Under the pieces are notes generated by a model. That model saw only the letters and a list, made by a program, of their open reading frames with translations. It was not told the DNA's origin and searched no databases. From Limnoperna fortunei (lineage: Eukaryota; Mollusca; Bivalvia; Mytilida; Modiolidae): DNA of 64,000 bases. Below, one piece after another: positions 20,755 through 52,000 of the stretch; the stretch's first letter is position 1; each line of letters starts with the position of its first letter. The translations under genes and the position numbers were made by a program. Location: NCBI GenBank assembly GCA_944474755.1, contig OX104123.1, positions 63,109,898 to 63,173,897 on the forward strand, read 5' to 3'.

Positions 20755-21795
20755 CATCCAGCAAGCAATGTTTTGTACAGCTATATTTAGGACAAGAACA
20801 AGTTTATAACCAATAAATCAACAGGGGAAGAGGATAGTCCACTGAAACGAAATTTTGACTTGCCACTAGCAAAGTATTGATGGAATGTCTGCTTTACATC
20901 CACCGAATAATATATTGAACAGCTTTATTCAGGAAGAGAGCAAGTTAATAAACAATAAATTAACAAGAAAACTGGATTGGCCACAGGGAAAAAAATGTTG
21001 ACTGCCACTGGAAAAGTTTGCTTAACATCAGGCGAATAATGTATCGAACAGCTTTATTCAGGACGAGAACAAGTTAACAAACAATAAATAAACAAAAAAA
21101 GTGGATTGGCTACAGGGAACAAAATTTTGTCTGCCACTGGAAAAGTTTGCTTAACATCAGGCGAATAATGTATTGAACAGCTTTATTCTTGGATGCGACC
21201 AAGTTAACAAACAATAAATCAACAAAAAAGTGGATTGGCCACAGGGAACAAAATTTTGACTGCCACTGGAAAAGTTTGCTTAACATCAGGCAAATAATGT
21301 ATTGAACAGCTTTATTCAGGACGAGAACAAGTTAACAAACAATAAATCAACAAAAAAGTGGATTGGCCACAGGGAACAAAATTTTGACTTCCACTGGAAA
21401 AGTTTGCTTAACATCAGGCGAATAATGTATTGAACAGCTTTATTCAGGATGCGAACAAGTTAACAATCAATAAATCAACAAAAAAGTGGATTGGCCACAG
21501 GGAACAACATTTTGACTGCCACTGGAAAAGTTTGCTTAACATCAGGCAAATAATGTATTGAACAGCTTTATTCAGGATGCGAACAAGTTAACAAACAATA
21601 AATCAACAAAAAAAGTGGATTGGCCACAGGGAACACAATTTTGACTTCCACTGGAAACGTTTGCTTAACATCAGGCGAATAATGTATTGAACAGCTTTAT
21701 TCAGGACGAGAACAATTTTATTAACAATAAATCAACAGGAAAAGTGGAGGAGCCACAGAGAACAAAATTTGGACTGCCACTGGAAGAGTATGTGG
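20755..21795. repeat. Tandem satellite, unit about 128 bp, about 8 copies
   Basis: The landmark gaacagctttattcagg recurs near 20916, 21044, 21175, 21303, 21432, 21559 and 21687. Each unit also has aacaataaatcaacaa, gtggattggccacagggaac and gccactggaaaag. The outermost copies are the most diverged, as is usual at array edges. No coding capacity. Confidence 0.88.
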
Positions 21796-33838: not shown

Positions 33839-34020
33839 TATTTATTGACAAAGTTTAAATACATATATACAAGACTAAAAGATCATGCAACGATACAAAT
33901 GACATTGTTTCTTGTCAAAACTATAGACACAGACTGACCAATGAATGGCCTTAGTCATTGAGTTTTAATATAAATAATTGACGTAAACAAATCATAACAT
34001 ATTGATTTTGATTATTTTCA

Positions 34021-34400
34021 CTCCAACTGAACCCAAAACTTCTAGATATATTGCTTCCCCGTCGGCCACCCGCGGACGCGCTGTTACTTGGCTTTGCTCA
34101 AATATTCCACCAAGATGTAATCAAAATTACCAAGGTGACAAATTCATTACGCCAGACTAGCGTTTCGTCTATCCAAGACTCATCAGTGACGTTTAACTCT
34201 AAAATGTTTCATATTTTTTCATCGGGAGATGGAATAATATAAATTCACTCGGATCGTGTAAATACACAATACATGCTGTTTAAAATATTATATAAAGGGT
34301 CTTAAGAAAGCTACCAAACAAGTACACGTATTTAGTATCGGATCGACAAATATTTTTTAACTCCAACTGAACCCAAATCTTCTATATATATTGCTTCCCT
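34021..34400 (-). mobile_element. Retrozyme-like element: 340-bp period with a hammerhead ribozyme
   Basis: A 40-bp segment (ctccaactgaacccaaaact tctagatatattgcttccc) occurs at 34021-34060 and again at 34361-34400 in the same direction, so one full monomer of about 340 bp plus a short overlap is present. Between the two copies lies a complete hammerhead ribozyme on the minus strand (34192-34149). Non-coding tandem monomers with type I hammerheads are the hallmark of animal retrozymes and of Penelope pseudo-LTRs, which move as RNA, sometimes as circles. This copy has no coding capacity. Whether it derives from a retrozyme or a PLE repeat cannot be decided from sequence alone. A minus-strand transcript is required for activity. 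Confidence 0.7.
34149..34192 (-). ncRNA. Hammerhead ribozyme, type I
   Basis: On the minus strand all core elements are present in order. Stem I 5' strand is ACGTCA, then CTGATGA (34186-34180), stem II GTCT-TGGAT-AGAC, then GAAA (34166-34163), stem III AC-GCTA-GT and the cleavage triplet GTC, followed by stem I 3' strand TGGCGT. Stem I pairs over six positions with one G-U. Stem III has only two pairs, as in the minimal hammerheads of animal retroelements, which often work better as dimers. Cleavage is predicted after plus position 34155, between 34155 and 34154 on the minus strand. Confidence 0.85.
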
Positions 34401-34479
34401 TTATAAATATATAATATATCTATCCACCAGATTTCTGAACCATCAAAAATACAGGGTTAATATTTAATATGTATATATA

Positions 34480-34760
34480 CGTCGACAAATTAAGCCCAAT
34501 ACTGTTAGAATTAGACTTCTAACACTGTCAAATGTTTTCTTACCCTCAGAGGAATTTGAACTCATACTGTTGTGACACTGTGGCACAGATTCGCCTGCAC
34601 TATGTCAAGCGGTCTGGACCCCTTGTTCAAATCCGCTATATAAAAAAAACATTAGCTTCATTAACCGGGGTGAATCGTAGACATAGACATATTACATGTG
34701 TACTAGCGGGTGACGATGGAATTTTCGTAACCAATACGTATTAATCTGACAGTATTTAAA
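34480..34760 (-). mobile_element. tRNA-derived SINE, family B (copy 1)
   Basis: On plus: cgtcgacaaattaagcccaa, then gaatttgaactc (B box complement), gcctgcactatgtcaagcgg, then caaatccgct (A-box side), then tgacgatggaattttcgtaa ccaatacgtatt. The tRNA-like part is mutated relative to the copy at 39589. Together with the next copy it forms a tandem duplication with a period of about 433 bp. Confidence 0.65.
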
Positions 34761-34912
34761 TTCAGCATTTTTTTATATATAATATAGGATGACTAAGTTA
34801 CTCGTCATACAGTCACAGTAAGTAACTTATATACAAACGCCTAAGTATTGTGACAACTATAATATGTCTATCCAGCGGATTTAAATAAATACAGGGTTAA
34901 TATCTTATACAT

Positions 34913-35128
34913 ACGTCTACAATTAAGACCAAAACTGTTAGAATTAGATTTTTAACACTGTCAAATGTTTGCTTACTTTTAATGGGATTTGAACTCCGTT
35001 GTGCCACTGCGGCACCAATTCGCTAAATGAAAAAAATTACCTTCATCGACCGGGTTGAATCCTAGACGTAGACATAGTACATGTGTACTAGCGTGTGTAG
35101 ATGGAATTTACGTAACCAATACGTATTT
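34913..35128 (-). mobile_element. tRNA-derived SINE, family B (copy 2, degenerate)
   Basis: It is similar to copy 1, including atacagggttaatat upstream (34890-34904) and gtaaccaatacgtattt at its end, but part of the tRNA-like region is deleted. The matching flanks show a segmental tandem duplication rather than an independent insertion. Confidence 0.6.
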
Positions 35129-36170
35129 AACTTTATATGTACACAGTCTTTGACAATATTTCAAATGATTTCATCCTAAAGTGTTGAGCTTTAAATCATT
35201 GACATTATTTGTCAACAGATGTTTACACTTTCATAAAACAGACAGCAAAATTACTTTCATGCACAAAACTTGATTAGAAATTCTATACGTGATAGTTATG
35301 TATACCAATATTACAAGCGAATTTGAATCAATAACAGGAATTTCATTGAATATATCTTAAGACATTAAATATGCTTGAAATTTTCGTCCCTTTATAATAT
35401 CCGAAACGCAAACGAAGTCAAGCAAATAAGATGATCACAGTCTTATTTCCCAAAACTTACTTAAATTTTTCATTATTTTAAAAAATTACACATTTTTGTA
35501 TCTATGTACTGCGAACAATCTGATATAATGTGTTTTTCCGATTTCTATTCAATTTTGTCTAAAAAAGAATAATGAGTGTTTTCTAAAAAAAACTTGGGTC
35601 TAAATACTTGTCTGATATCTATCTTTTAAACATTAAACATAGCAGCCAAAACACAAATTATTACTTTTTTAGCTTTCCAACAGTACCAAATTTCGTTTTT
35701 CATGAAGTTTCATTGTCATCTTTGTCAGAAGACCTTCCAAACGTTTTTATTTGAATGTACATTTTCTACAGTTACATGATAATTAAAAATGTTAATTTCT
35801 TCTGTGAAAAAAAACCTAGGCAACCTGATTTCTTCTAAACGAAAAGATATATCTCTAGGTAACATAATTTTTAGAAGATGATATCGTAGCTAAAATTGCT
35901 TTTGTGGATTCATCTTAAAATATTGCCCCCCCCCCCCCCCCTAAAAAGAGAAGAAATTTTTTTTAATTTATATTAATTTATCAAGTTTTAAATAATTTGA
36001 TGTTAATAAAAAATTTATTTTCAGAGCCTGCTATCCAAAGGGGATAAAAACCCTTTCCTCCTGGTTCATATTTTTTGTTATATTGCAAGAAGCATTGAAA
36101 TAAATCTGTTTATATATACAACTGTAAAGCAAAATTTTCCCTTAATCAAAAAATTGTGTTGTAACCTTGA
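35129..36170. other. Non-coding spacer
   Basis: AT-rich sequence without recognisable exon or repeat family. A homopolymer tract of about 18 C lies at 35924-35941. Confidence 0.4.
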
Positions 36171-38148: not shown

Positions 38149-38201
38149 ATATATTTTAAAATCCACATAATAGAATTAGCAACAATAAAAATGTTTGTTT
38201 T

Positions 38202-38240
38202 CCACGACCGGCTTCATCTCTTCCGAGATCTTCAAAGTGG
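38202..38240 (-). ncRNA. Hammerhead-like motif in the left PLE arm (degenerate)
   Basis: This is the inverted copy of the motif at 39287-39325: CCAC, TTGAAGA, hairpin TCTC-GGAA-GAGA, then TGAAG (mutated from GAAA), CCGGTC, GTGG. Two core substitutions make activity unlikely. Confidence 0.45.
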
Positions 38241-38315
38241 ATGTTTTGTATACAATTGACGTCGTTATCAGTAACGTGACGTTACAATGGTCCATAGATA
38301 CTGACGCCGTCAGGT

Positions 38316-38612
38316 ATGGTTAAAATCCGGAACGGAACTGTTGAGACGTGGCCGATATTTATGGATGAATTGTTCTTTATTTATACGAAAAACAACATTC
38401 CGTACAATTTAGCGAGAAGAATTTGCACAATTGTCTCAAACACCAACACCAGAGACGAAAGATTAAAAGAATTAAAAAGTATTCTCTTAAAACGAAAATT
38501 TCCTACCACACTGATAGACACGGGAATTGAAAAAGCAAAGCAAATTAGTACTCAAGAACTAAAACTTGTAAGAAGTAAAACTGAAGAAAAGGTCATCCCA
38601 TTCAACATTTAA
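38316..38612 (+). pseudogene. Chimeric open frame: antisense arm fused to PLE reverse-transcriptase end
   Basis: The first 24 or so codons (38316-38386) read the antisense of the GIY-YIG C-terminus, because the left arm is an inverted copy. Only from about residue 25 (NNIPYNLARRICTIV) is the frame real reverse-transcriptase sequence. The ATG is therefore not a biological start. The frame ends at a stop caused by a one-base shift near 38600. Confidence 0.75.
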
Positions 38613-38749
38613 CCCAAAGAATGCTGAAATTTTTACACACATTTACCAAAATTTACCAATTTTAAATACAGACGAGAAAATGAAGAAAATCATAGAGAAT
38701 AATGCTATCATCAAGAGTAAAAGACAGTCGAAATCTCTAAAAAAACATT

Positions 38750-39217
38750 TTGACATCAGCAAAATTACCGCAGGAAAACTTAGTCAGGAAAGTTATTAAG
38801 TGCAATAGACCAAATTGTGGAGTTTGTGCATATTTAATGGAAGGATCAGAATTCCAGTTCAAAAATGGAAAAGTTTTTAAAATAAAAAATAATTTTACTT
38901 GTTCATCTAGCAATTTAATTTACGTCATCACATGTAAAGGATGTAAAGAAAATTATATAGGACAAACCGGCATGACATTACGCCATCGCATGACTGTACA
39001 TCGGCAACAAATTCGTGATGTCAATACTAGACAAATAACACTAAGCGAGCATATTGAATTGTGTGCCGGTCATTCTTTACCTAATTTTTCTATTTTCCCA
39101 TTTTATAAATGTTCAGACTCTACGACAGAAGAACAACGTATAAATAAAGAACAACAATTCATCCATAAATATCGGCCACGTCTCAACAGTTCCGTTCCGG
39201 ATTTTAACCACACCTGA
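38750..39217 (+). pseudogene. GIY-YIG endonuclease domain of the Penelope-like element
   Basis: The 155-residue open part has a Cys cluster CNRPNCGVC (18-26), then IYVI (57-60) and YIGQTGMTLRHRMTVH (69-84). It thus holds the GIY-like strand, YIG, and the conserved Arg and His of the nuclease. It ends with KEQQFIHKYRPRLNS. In PLEs this domain nicks target DNA for reverse transcription. The domain itself looks intact, but the upstream RT is cut off by two frame changes and the truncation. Confidence 0.85.
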
Positions 39218-39286
39218 CGGCGTCAGTATCTATGGACCATTGTAACGTCACGTTACCGATAACGACGTCAATTGTATACAAAACAT

Positions 39287-39325
39287 CCACTTTGAAGATC
39301 TCGGAAGAGATGAAACCGGTCGTGG
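39287..39325 (+). ncRNA. Hammerhead-like motif in the right PLE arm (degenerate)
   Basis: Order of parts: stem I 5' strand CCAC, one extra T, TTGAAGA (consensus CTGANGA, with C3 changed to T), hairpin TCTC-GGAA-GAGA, then TGAAA, self-complementary CCGG, TC, and stem I 3' strand GTGG. The layout matches PLE-type minimal hammerheads, but the C3 change and the extra U before GAAA suggest decay. Confidence 0.5.
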
Positions 39326-39448
39326 AAAACGAACATTTTTATTGTTGCTAATTCTATTATGTGGATTTTAAAATATATTGTGACATTCATTTCCGGATTT
39401 ATATTTTCTTTATATACTTTTCTTGTATAGTTTTACTGACAAACTATT

Positions 39449-39526: not shown

Positions 39527-39567
39527 TTCACTAGTACTTTCATGCCTTCCAGCAATCTTCAGGTGAA
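39527..39567 (-). ncRNA. Second hammerhead-like motif (minus strand)
   Basis: On minus: TTCAC, CTGAAGA (exact CTGANGA core), TTGCTGGAAGGCAT as stem-loop II, GAAA, self-complementary GTAC, TA, and GTGAA, which pairs fully with TTCAC. All core blocks are in the right order. Stem II is weak (three pairs with a U-U next to the core). It is probably the end of a different Penelope-like family. Confidence 0.5.
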
Positions 39568-39588
39568 TATATATATATATATATATAC

Positions 39589-39850
39589 TTCTACAAATTA
39601 AGCCCAACACTGTTTGAATTAGATTTTTAACACTATCAAATTTTTGTTTACCCTCAGCGGGATTCGAACTCACACCGTTGTGACACTGTGGCACCAAATC
39701 GCCTGCACTATGTCCAGCGGTCTAGACCCCTCGGCCAAATCCGCTATATGAAAATATAGCTTCATTAACCGGGGTGAAACGTAGACATAGACATAGTACA
39801 TGTGTACTAGCGTGTGACGATGGAATTTTCGTAACCAATACATATTAATT
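39589..39850 (-). mobile_element. tRNA-derived SINE, family B, best copy
   Basis: On minus the tRNA-like head reads AGCGGATTTGGCCGAGGGGT (A box TGGCCGAGG) and, about 70 bp on, GTGAGTTCGAATCCCGCTGA (B box GTTCGAATC). The tail attcaaacagtgttgggctt aatttgtagaag runs into a (TA)n tract (39567-39588). The head resembles a tRNA-Leu/Ser type. A 5' extension up to about 39850 matches the copies near 34.5-35.1 kb. Confidence 0.75.
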
Positions 39851-39956
39851 TGACAGTAATCTAATTCAGCATTTTTGTATATATTATATAGGATGACAAA
39901 GTTACTTGTCATTCAGTCTCACAGTAAGTAAATTATATACAAACGTCTAAGTATTG

Positions 39957-40804
<848 letters not shown>

Positions 40805-47699: not shown

Positions 47700-49003
47700 A
47701 TACTACTTGGTTGTATTGGCTATCAGGTTAGGCTACTATTGGTTGTATTGGCTATCAGGTTAGGCTACTCTTGGTTGTATTGGCTATCAGGTTAGGCTAC
47801 TACTTGGTTGTATTGGCTATCAGGTTAGGCTACTCTTGGTTGTATTGGCTATCAGGTTAGGCTACTCTTGGTTGTATTGGCTATCAGGTTAGGCTACTAC
47901 TTGGTTGTATTGGCTATCAGGTTAGGCTACTATTGGTTGTATTGGCTATCAGGTTAGGCTACTACTTGGTTGTATTGGCTATCAGGTTAGGCTACTCTTG
48001 GTTGTATTGGCTATCAGGTTAGGCTACTCTTGGTTGTATTGGCTATCAGGTTAGGCTACTATTGGTTGTATTGGCTATCAGGTTAGGCTACTCTTGGTTG
48101 TATTGGCTATCAGGTTAGGCTACTACTTGGTTGTATTGGCTATCAGGTTAGGCTACTCTTGGTTGTATTGGCTATCAGGTTAGGCTACTCTTGGTTGTAT
48201 TGGCTATCAGGTTAGGCTACTACTTGGTTGTATTGGCTATCAGGTTAGGCTACTACTTGGTTGTATTGGCTATCAGGTTAGGCTACTACTTGGTTGTATT
48301 GGCTATCAGGTTAGGCTACTACTTGGTTGTATTGGCTATCAGGTTAGGCTACTCTTGGTTGTATTGGCTATCAGGTTAGGCTACTCTTGGTTGTATTGGC
48401 TATCAGGTTAGGCTACTACTTGGTTGTATTGGCTATCAGGTTAGGCTACTCTTGGTTGTATTGGCTATCAGGTTAGGCTACTCTTGGTTGTATTGGCTAT
48501 CAGGTTAGGCTACTACTTGGTTGTATTGGCTATCAGGTTAGGCTACTCTTGGTTGTATTGGCTATCAGGTTAGGCTACTACTTGGTTGTATTGGCTATCA
48601 GGTTAGGCTACTCTTGGTTGTATTGGCTATCAGGTTAGGCTACTCTTGGTTGTATTGGCTATCAGGTTAGGCTACTACTTGGTTGTATTGGCTATCAGGT
48701 TAGGCTACTCTTGGTTGTATTGGCTATCAGGTTAGGCTACTACTTGGTTGTATTGGCTATCAGGTTAGGCTACTCTTGGTTGTATTGGCTATCAGGTTAG
48801 GCTACTCTTGGTTGTATTGGCTATCAGGTTAGGCTACTACTTGGTTGTATTGGCTATCAGGTTAGGCTACTATTGGTTGTATTGGCTATCATGTTAGGCT
48901 ACTCTTGGTTGTATTGGCTATCAGGTTAGGCTACTCTTGGTTGTATTGGCTATCAGGTTAGGCTACTCTTGGTTGTATTGGCTATCAGGTTAGGCTACTC
49001 TTG
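47700..49003. repeat. Minisatellite, 32/33-bp unit, about 40 copies
   Basis: The unit is ttggttgtattggctatcag gttaggctact followed by a, c or ac. Unit type b (...ctactc, 32 bp) and type c (...ctactac, 33 bp) dominate and often follow the order b-b-c, giving a higher-order period near 97 bp; type a (...ctacta) is rarer. Copies are nearly identical, with only one internal base change noticed (catgtt near 48891). A run of c units opens a fortuitous frame at 48191-48379. Confidence 0.95.
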
Positions 49004-52000
49004 GATACTTGGGATTAATGTTGGTTTTTGGAATGAAGATAAAGTCTTCTATAAAGCCCTTTATTTAGGAAGGTAATCCACCTGCTGTATCTATAATGAA
49101 TCTGACAGTTGCTACTAAGACAGACAGTGCAATAGTTGAGACAGTTAAACCAATCAAACAATTTTATATTCTCATTCCTTTTCAAATCAAATCTGTTTCA
49201 GTAGAATTGTCTTAAAGTCCAGGTGGTATCATTTAATTATTCCTAATAGTGTAAGCATGTGACAAATTGTTCCTCATGCCTAGAATTGGCTCTTGTCTGG
49301 GGCTTCCTCGAGTATAAAGGTCATCGTTGCTGGTATAGATGTAGTCGACACCTTATTTGCAAGGGAATGTACTGCCCGTACCCTTTGCTTCGCTCTTTCT
49401 AGATTGTTGCTGTGTTTATGATTCTTACTCGATTGGTTGGGTTGATTTATCTTGTTGACGGTAATGATTACTGTTGCGGTTTGGATAAAAAATTTGACTT
49501 TTATTGTTGGTGCCTCTACAATAACCTCTGGTATTCATTTCTACTGTATGCTGCTGGTATACTCCTTTAGCGAGTGTATCTGTTGTGTCCGATGATTAGT
49601 CACCCATTTAAGATCTCCGTATTTAGAATTAGTATACATGTATTAGTATTTTTGTAACAAAACAAACTAAAAATCTCAATAGATCAGATGAAAATATATA
49701 TTGACTTAGCTTCATCTTGATAAATCCATATATCCATATATACCGTAGGGTACGGTCCTAACATAACATACCTGTCAAATTCAAGAGCAGATAGTTTGAC
49801 TTTGTTTTCTTTAAAAACGTGATTAACGTGTTCGAGGGTATACTTGACCCATTATTGGATTATTTTTTCTTCATACTTCATTTGACAACTTTGATTTCTG
49901 TGAACAGTTTTGTCCAATAATAATTTGTTGACAATCGGTTTCATTATATCATAGTTTTGTTTGATCGGCCGTATCGTCAATTTATTTGCTGATAACGAGC
50001 TCTGTTGCAACGACACACATTTGATATTTTTAAAAATTCTACTAAACTTCGGTTTTGATTCGGTTAAATAATTTTATACCGCTACTATAGTTCTAACACT
50101 AAAACGAATCAATCTTGAAACAATAAAGACTAGTAAAACAGTGTGTAGATGCCAACACAAATGTCTCCTAAATAAAGCCCCAGCTTTGTTAGAAAATTTA
50201 AAAGATTGGAAGAACTTCAGGTCAGACACCAACATACTCTCAAAGTTTTGCGTTGATTATATATTGAATCTTTAAAAAAAACAAGCGGACAAGATTAAAA
50301 TGGAAAGAAAAAACAGAAATTAAGAACAATATGTTTCCAAAACTGGCATAAAAACGCACACATACCACACAAGCATAATATATGCATTTGACAATAAAGC
50401 CATTATTGCAATGTAAGTGTTTTTAGCTATCTTAACTAGTTGATAACAATAAAATATTTCCATTTGTTGGTTAAGCTTGCTTATCATTTTGTCTATTTTT
50501 TATGAATCGCATGCTTATGCAAGTTCTTCTCAGTAAAGAGCGTCACTGAGACTTTATACTGTCATAATTTTATAAGACAATATCTCTCAGTTCATGGGTA
50601 AATCTTGGAATATAATAATATTGTACAACTCCTCGACAATCGTAAATGAATTGATATTCTACGAAATTAACCGAATGAAACAAGTGACAATTTTATGTGC
50701 TATTTTCTTACCCTGGCGGTTGGTTATCTGTCTATCTGCCTGGCACGTAGTTCGATGTAAGCATACAATAAATTATAATAATAATTCATAAACTCTGACA
50801 TTTTGTAGCTGCTCCAATATGCTTAATAATTTGTTATCTTGGGATCAGCATGGCAGATTTCACACACGTTACATACTATAGTCCCGTCTAAGCTTTCCTT
50901 TTGAATACAGAACAGTCCAACACGAGAGTCATCACTGTGAAAAAACCAATTCGAAAGAGATGGACCAACGGGCGAAAATTTAGGGTCTGAAAATTTAGTC
51001 TTTTGTAGCGTCTACAATGAGCCTACTCTTATTAACATTTACAAAAGGGTCTTTATCGTGTATCAAGCTTGGCCTACTTCCAACACGTTAACAAATGTGG
51101 TCCTCGGTCATGCTTTTCGTGTTATAACCTGACATCCTCTTACGACAGGGCATCCTAATCAGCCACATCTGGACGGGCTGGCAAGCTCTGTGGGTACAGC
51201 ACTGCGATAGTCGATTCATGTTTTTTCATATGACTTGAGAAGATTCCAACAAGAAGGCATGTTTAATCTGTCACATGTGAAGCTCTAGGCTTGCTCATAT
51301 TTGATTCAAGTTGAGTAACAATACTGCAGCTATAACGAGAATAAGTTGAATAATTAACGACCAATTTTGCTCATTTGGTAAATAGGATGAACGAACTCCT
51401 AAAACAGTTTAAACTTTTGTACTGAACATTTGGTCTACTTTTTTCAATTCTGTGACAAACTAGTCCGTTTCCGTCTGCCGCTGAGACCAACGCAAAAAAA
51501 AAGCGTTGGACGGCAGATGATTCTCGAACTAGTGACAAAAATTGTATTTTCTTATTCATTATTCATGTGCTTAATTTTGTACCGATGCTTGTTATTTTTG
51601 CTGAGATTTTTCAAATAAAAACACTTTTAATACAGGATATAGCTAAAAAGTATTTGGTCATTTGTGTATCGTTGTTGTTAATTATTTCACTTCCGTGACC
51701 AGTAAACCTATTAATTAAGATATTTCCCGCTCACTTTGATTATTTGTCTTTTTTCCGCATACTTTCAAGCATTGCGTGTTGAATTAGATAATCCTGGACA
51801 GCAATTGATTACAACATTTCCATTGCAAGATATATACAAGTTTAAGTAAAACTCTCAATAGGCCGGTTGTGTAAAAAAGTAAAACATCCGGTGAGTTAAA
51901 AAATGAGATATTAATTTATCAGTTGTTATGCAACATGAACATTGCGTAACTGTTGATTTAAACATATCATTAGCCAAACCTTTCACTGGATGTCTGCCGC

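Follow-up and report, generated by a model that had tools for sequence, protein, structure and literature searches.

A hammerhead retrozyme family in the golden mussel and its shared non-coding sequence with a Penelope-like element of the same genome

A window of 64,000 nucleotides from the golden mussel, Limnoperna fortunei (C13:63109898-63173897), carries on its minus strand the core of a hammerhead ribozyme set between two direct copies of a short segment. An earlier note on this DNA read the arrangement as retrozyme-like, with a 340-bp unit. Is the ribozyme genuine, to what kind of element does it belong, and which enzyme would have copied that element into the genome?

The hammerhead and the extent of the window copy

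The minus strand from 34192 to 34149 is a type I hammerhead ribozyme. It matches the full Rfam model RF00163 (Hammerhead_1, model positions 1-45) at 28.3 bits, giving an E value of 0.0002 in 1.5 kb and 0.0085 over 64 kb. A default Rfam scan of the window lists no hammerhead because this score lies under the gathering score of 34 bits; the covariance-model check proposed earlier therefore returned a full-model match, but one below the threshold. Every core block noticed in the earlier note is present in order, as the sequence, RF00163 and a descriptor scan agree: CTGATGA, a stem II of GTCT/AGAC, GAA, and a stem III of AC/GT closed by the loop GCTA, with a stem I of six pairs including one U-G (ACGTCA/TGGCGT). 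C17 is at 34155, and cleavage is therefore predicted between 34155 and 34154. The descriptor (stem I of at least 5 pairs, stem II of at least 4 and stem III of at least 2) is matched once in the window and not at all in 7.68 million strand-bases of first-order Markov simulation. A chance resemblance could be argued from the score under the Rfam gathering score; it is contradicted by the lack of an equal-quality match in the 7.68 Mb of simulated strand and by genome homologues whose hammerheads score over the cut-off, up to 46.1 bits, and we give it next to no weight. The hammerhead in the window is genuine.

The element around it is longer than the span first assigned to it (34021..34400). The whole copy runs on the minus strand from a 5' end near 34397 to a 3' end near 33865. 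BLAST against a 506-bp reference unit (L002:1501-2006) gives 90% over 489 nt (34353-33865) and 87% over 46 nt (34397-34352), and the copy corresponds to positions 291-334 of that unit followed by 1-481. It thus comprises about 1.1 rearranged units with one hammerhead. The direct copies 340 apart are real: they are 45 nt long and 93% alike, the 5' one lying in the partial unit (34355-34399, minus strand) and the 3' one inside the full unit (34015-34059, minus strand). Their spacing arises because about 172 bp are missing from the window copy where the partial unit meets the full one, and these ~172 nt of the partial upstream unit were lost either by deletion or by a template jump. The 340-bp repeat is a local rearrangement.

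The family palindrome of stem III, ACGCGCGT, has changed to ACGCTAGT in the window. The altered sequence is unable to pair fully with a second copy in the hammerhead register, which weakens, for this copy, the earlier argument that a two-pair stem III predicts cleavage as a dimer. With one hammerhead only, the window copy presumably could not excise a circle by itself. Having a single hammerhead, a weakened stem III and a truncated sequence, it is probably inert.

SINE-like repeats, so called for their repetition and for a tRNA match under threshold, and a fragment of a Penelope-like element (PLE) both lie nearby, as first described. The PLE fragment has a GIY-YIG match at 38741-39217 on the plus strand (28.9 bits, over the Pfam cut-off) and inverted arms of 229 nt, 98% alike, at 38149-38377 and 39150-39378. 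Near-tandem copies of a dispersed repeat occupy 34447-35132, directly 5' of the retrozyme copy, and the repeat occurs again at 39567-40066 beside the PLE fragment; at some PLE ends elsewhere a TA tract is likewise followed by sequence resembling it. Satellite arrays occupy 47701-49004 and 20890-21789, and their periods are about 32 and 129 bp. G+C content is 33.3% for the window, 34.3% for the window copy and 33.0-36.3% for three units of the family.

A family of dispersed and tandem copies

We searched the assembly (1,335,373,924 bases in 285 contigs) for relatives. A DNA search with a 386-base stretch gave at least 44 matches (40 scored of 2184 first-look candidates); the full-length matches listed, the window itself aside, are 84-90% identical to the window stretch. 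RF00163 gave at least 57 matches, with all those listed over the cut-off and a best score of 46.1 bits (74 scored of 160719 first-look candidates). Family sequence is present in 29 of 30 loci taken from the RF00163 search and absent, among the matches listed, from one (L032). The hammerhead of that locus (L032:1544-1501, minus strand; C5:58488344-58488387) is solitary and scores 45.3 bits; beyond the ribozyme and its near flank the sequence is not related to the retrozyme unit. In its stem I the core-proximal pair is U-A in place of A-U.

The relatives comprise dispersed copies on different chromosomes and tandem arrays. In the long regular array at C8:863466-866832 the period is 506 bp, and elsewhere units measure about 480-556 bp. 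The proposed search for tandem copies was thus successful as to arrays but not as to a 340-bp length, and a 340-bp unit was rejected. The window element is an animal retrozyme, a known kind of element: the identity first suggested holds in that a family with type I hammerheads occurs in dispersed and tandem form, and fails as to the size of the unit or circle. An apparent array of ~20 kb at C13:68307896-68327698 consists mostly of a ~480-bp unit variant, with many intact-looking hammerheads among the matches listed.

The loci hold 103 distinct hammerhead stretches. CTGATGA and GAAA are kept in 77, and 74 were parsed. Six stem I pairs together with four stem II pairs occur in 48 of the 74, the palindromic stem III ACGCGCGT in 64, and the commonest form (21/74) is ACGCCA-CTGATGA-GTCT-TAAGT-AGAC-GAA-AC-GCGC-GT-C-TGGCGT. 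Stem covariation was not significant in an alignment (A1) of 28 of 34 distinct hammerheads plus that of L032, five with length changes and one other being left out: a single both-sides change was seen in 29 sequences, a count reached by 169 of 500 shuffles. Two doubled units have longest stop-free stretches of 60 and 68 codons, so that the unit is non-coding and has no reverse transcriptase. Retrozyme circles are described in print as highly self-paired; circular folds of three units and of the window 340-nt stretch pair 59-65% of bases and are no stabler than shuffles (z -0.67 to 0.14, 60 shuffles each). Target-site duplications of metazoan retrozymes, when present, exceed 4 bp, and by eye none was clear in 13 insertions and the window.

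After exclusion of overlapping array loci (L003-L008, L035-L037, L044-L054, L056, L059 and L060), the duplicate L061, PLE tails, L032 and ends running off a locus, 70 retrozyme 3' ends remained; removal of eight array-tiling ends (position 551) and two internal ends of one array (L043) left 60 and reduced site 2 from 17 to 15. Nineteen of these ends fall at reference 515-538 (site 1) and 15 at 61-70 (site 2). The two sites thus hold 34 of 60 ends against about 3.7 under uniform placement (binomial 1e-25, a value to be read in the light of site windows picked after seeing the data and of approximate BLAST ends). The other 26 lie at neither site, and a few short rows in the count may be PLE pieces. 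At both sites TAGACT precedes a T/A-rich run that includes TATAT; (TA)n is common in the flanks, which are TA-rich at many of the ends. The window copy ends at reference position 531, within the site 1 cluster, and holds the counterpart of site 2 internally at 34285-34309 on the minus strand (CTTAAGACCCTTTATATAATA; position read from the sequence). The 67 retrozyme 5' ends are scattered. Nine at position 1 are tiling artefacts; seven lie at 50-61, eight at 351-371 and six at 221-244, in the general neighbourhood of the hammerhead cut (reference 227/228), and none of these groups is a sharp peak at the cut.

These ends bear on whether the family is a hammerhead satellite spread at the DNA level, by unequal crossing over or extrachromosomal circles, with no retroelement involved. 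Long regular arrays, with a period of 506 at C8:863466-866832 and of about 480 at C13:68.307-68.328 Mb, are what such a satellite would give. Many dispersed copies, however, sit on different chromosomes and are 1.x units long, their 3' ends gather at two sites (34/60) while their 5' ends scatter, and a reverse-transcribing element has sequence and an end point in common with the unit. We consider a satellite origin quite improbable, and a retrozyme copied through RNA the better reading.

Sequence shared with a Penelope-like element

The ends of the retrozyme copies led to a second repeat with the same end point. It continues upstream into an open reading frame (ORF) ending WIKELCSVHPNGINK, and we read it as a PLE because this ORF matches RVT_1 and GIY-YIG. 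In L076:1-1563 (521 residues, open to the locus edge) the RVT_1 match has an E value of 3.6e-8 and is over the cut-off; the GIY-YIG match has an E value of 0.002 and 18.8 bits against a cut-off of 22.6. A PDB sequence search with the ORF gave no match. Of the 30 loci L061-L090, six (L076, L080, L082, L083, L089 and L090) have a frame that stays open over 521 residues and reaches the locus edge. Several copies stand in tandem, about 3.2 kb apart. At the tandem junctions of L078 and L088 the tail runs directly into the 5' UTR and then the next ORF; in L076 the next PLE has a different start. The stretch from 5' UTR to ORF start is complete in 35 of 42 genome matches listed (40 scored of 399 first-look candidates). 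The PLE fragment in the window, which the earlier note had offered as a source of reverse transcriptase, was rejected as helper: it belongs to a different family from the PLE sharing the retrozyme's non-coding sequence, with 27% identity to it over 110 residues (E 4e-11).

Between a rotated retrozyme unit and the L078 junction the alignment spans 302 columns at 77.5% and scores 205 bits, against 35.4 bits for the best of 1000 dinucleotide shuffles of the junction. With L088 the alignment covers 372 columns at 73% and passes through the presumed PLE ORF start. The match at the ORF start itself (18 of 20 nt) is weak alone (E 0.018) and ends about 16 nt before the retrozyme hammerhead core. The homology of ~300 nt reaches the presumed PLE start codon, and the hammerhead lies a short way past it. 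Each of 59 retrozyme loci out of 59, and the window too, contains parts of both the PLE tail and the 5' UTR at E<=1e-5; PLE tails proper are also present in some of the 59. In all, ~300 nt of the retrozyme unit have a homologous counterpart (77%) in the non-coding junction between tandem PLEs of this genome. We regard this as new; a literature search of titles, abstract openings and passages gave no report of such shared retrozyme-PLE sequence, which is no proof of priority.

Three minus-strand segments of the window copy carry this homology. The segment at 34227-34349 corresponds to the PLE 5' UTR together with the last part of the 3' tail (82.9% over 123 columns against the L078 junction, pairwise E 1e-28). 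That at 33936-33977 corresponds to the PLE 3' UTR (71% over 45 columns); alone it is weak (E 0.046), but it stands in PLE order with the next segment, a 3'-terminal PLE-tail homologue at 33865-33923 (72% over 61 columns, E 2e-6) that stops at 3'-end site 1 (TTAGTCTTGTATATA). Relative to the PLE the segments are circularly permuted, as expected if the copy was made from a circle or tandem RNA. In 26 of 29 loci the PLE copy ends at reference 61-70, which is site 2; this count is biased, since the query used to pick the PLE loci by best match itself stopped at the shared end. In the remaining three the sequence continues into the next PLE (L078 and L088) or fuses with a retrozyme that follows (L084).

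The hammerhead half of the unit behaves differently. In six PLE loci the only match to reference 143-395, which includes the ribozyme, at an E value below 0.1 is a retrozyme piece in L078. PLE tails and the two tandem junctions examined yielded no hammerhead, so the PLE is now without the ribozyme that the retrozyme would have inherited. Motif hammerheads occur in five of the 30 PLE loci (L061, which overlaps L029, L062, L066, L084 and L090), all within retrozyme sequence. The window copy could be imagined as a mere PLE piece, a solo pseudo-LTR with the PLE's own hammerhead, since PLEs bear type I hammerheads at the boundary of pLTR and ORF in the passages of PMC11167929, and the hammerhead here sits just after the stretch matching the PLE ORF start. 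Against this stand the failure of reference 143-395 to match the PLE loci and the tandem arrays that the unit forms without an ORF (at most 60-68 stop-free codons), and we find it hard to credit.

Another machine, a LINE or an unrelated PLE, might instead move the retrozyme, the partner PLE having captured retrozyme sequence or both having taken up a third repeat. Shared sequence alone gives no direction, and the hammerhead half was not found in the PLE loci tested. The shared part, however, is the non-coding junction of tandem PLEs (tail and 5' UTR), its 5' UTR-into-ORF-start stretch is complete in most PLE matches listed (35/42), the homology reaches the presumed ORF start, and the 3' ends coincide. 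We judge another machine unlikely. Descent from PLE to retrozyme is favoured, but not proven, because the ORF-start stretch has been retained.

Retrozymes and PLEs also meet at insertion sites. Two retrozymes, or a PLE and a retrozyme, meet 3' to 3' in or near a TA tract in L031, L062, L066, L077 and L081. Matches lie within 250 nt of the PLE end in 11 of 29 loci, including L078 and L088 (the next PLE unit), L064 and L069. An opposite-strand retrozyme or PLE tail is close to the PLE end in five (L062, L063, L066, L077 and L081) and a same-direction element in two (L074 and L084). Control windows 300 to 1200 nt further on gave 5, 4, 4 and 2 of 29. As TA tracts may be hot spots for both elements, the excess near PLE ends is no more than suggestive.

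A model of retrozyme copying and its relation to known systems

The hammerhead, the unit, the dispersed and tandem copies, the clustered 3' ends and the sequence and end point shared with the PLE are the basis of our reading: the window holds a decayed, 5'-truncated insertion of a non-coding metazoan retrozyme family, most likely copied by the enzyme of a PLE in the same genome (probability about 0.75). We infer the following course. Tandem retrozyme copies would be transcribed, each hammerhead would cut, and the unit-length RNAs would be ligated into circles. A reverse transcriptase, most likely that of the PLE family sharing its 3' tail and 5' UTR with the retrozyme, would begin within the circle, where one of two AT-rich sites had annealed to a TA-rich nick. 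Reading the circle once or several times, it would leave dispersed copies whose 3' end is fixed and whose 5' end varies. A fuller version, which we hold tentatively and rate a little short of an even chance, is that the retrozyme is a PLE stripped of its ORF that kept the tail, the 5' UTR, the ORF start and two start sites, with a strong hammerhead after the start codon region; its circles would be copied internally by the PLE enzyme, sometimes for several rounds, and 3'-to-3' PLE/retrozyme pairs at one TA tract would mark both strands of one break having been primed.

Metazoan non-LTR retrozymes occur as short repeats in runs from dimers to multimers, are expressed as RNA that self-cleaves and takes linear and circular forms, and have units of about 150-450 bp and RNAs of ~170-400 nt as described by Cervera and de la Pena (2020, PMC7229834), which also gives hammerhead-flanked repeats yielding circles of 150 to >1000 nt; we therefore treat unit size as a range and not a bar. 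The same source reports ~5000 hammerheads in Mytilus galloprovincialis, and a golden mussel gene table counts 5,091 ribozyme genes, their kind not given in the passage (PMC10541798). The mussel family resembles Mytilus and other metazoan retrozymes, so far as PMC7229834 describes them, in its type I hammerhead, non-coding unit, tandem and dispersed copies and the PLEs in its genome, and its G+C content falls below 45-50% as theirs does. It differs from Mytilus retrozymes in unit size (about 480-556 bp against ~350-390 bp, compared by description rather than by sequence) and from metazoan retrozymes as described there in its homology to PLE sequence.

The comparison with PLEs is closer at the ends. 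PMC11167929 describes how, for the Anolis PLE PAc, AT-rich DNA is cut, synthesis extends both of its strands and reverse transcription begins at two neighbouring internal sites, with no homology between the start site and the cut DNA. Pairing of the retrozyme with its TA-rich target is, by contrast, likely here, and the likeness is one of kind only. Like the PLEs with pseudo-LTRs described in passages on PAc (PMC11167929) and the Adineta vaga Penelopes (PMC3846280), the mussel retrozyme has AT-rich insertion sites, two 3'-end sites, a hammerhead adjoining the ORF-start stretch, and a fixed 3' end with variable 5' truncation. The two 3'-end sites are about 94 nt apart, against a tail of 30-40 bp in those papers. 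The two-pair stem III with a tetraloop sets the mussel hammerhead apart from those of these PLEs, and the mussel PLE tails and two junctions examined are without a hammerhead, unlike the hammerhead PLEs of the same passages. The mussel retrozyme shares non-coding tandem-junction sequence and a 3' end with its PLE, and differs from it in having no ORF (no reverse transcriptase or GIY-YIG in the unit).

PLEs have been proposed as retrozyme helpers from co-occurrence, shared hammerheads and tandem copies (passages of PMC7229834, PMC7761336 and PMC8969392), and a review proposes that retrozymes arose from PLEs by reduction (in a passage of PMC11722881). At the sequence level, the shared stretch and end point support the published idea that PLEs may mobilise animal retrozymes. 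For the copying of a retrozyme back into DNA, the mussel pair names a candidate helper PLE and two candidate start sites that are testable in vitro. Some SINEs borrow the 3' tail of a LINE helper. The mussel retrozyme is like LINE-tail SINEs in being a non-coding element with a 3' end common to an autonomous helper, and unlike them in that the candidate helper is a PLE and the template was probably a ribozyme-made circle.
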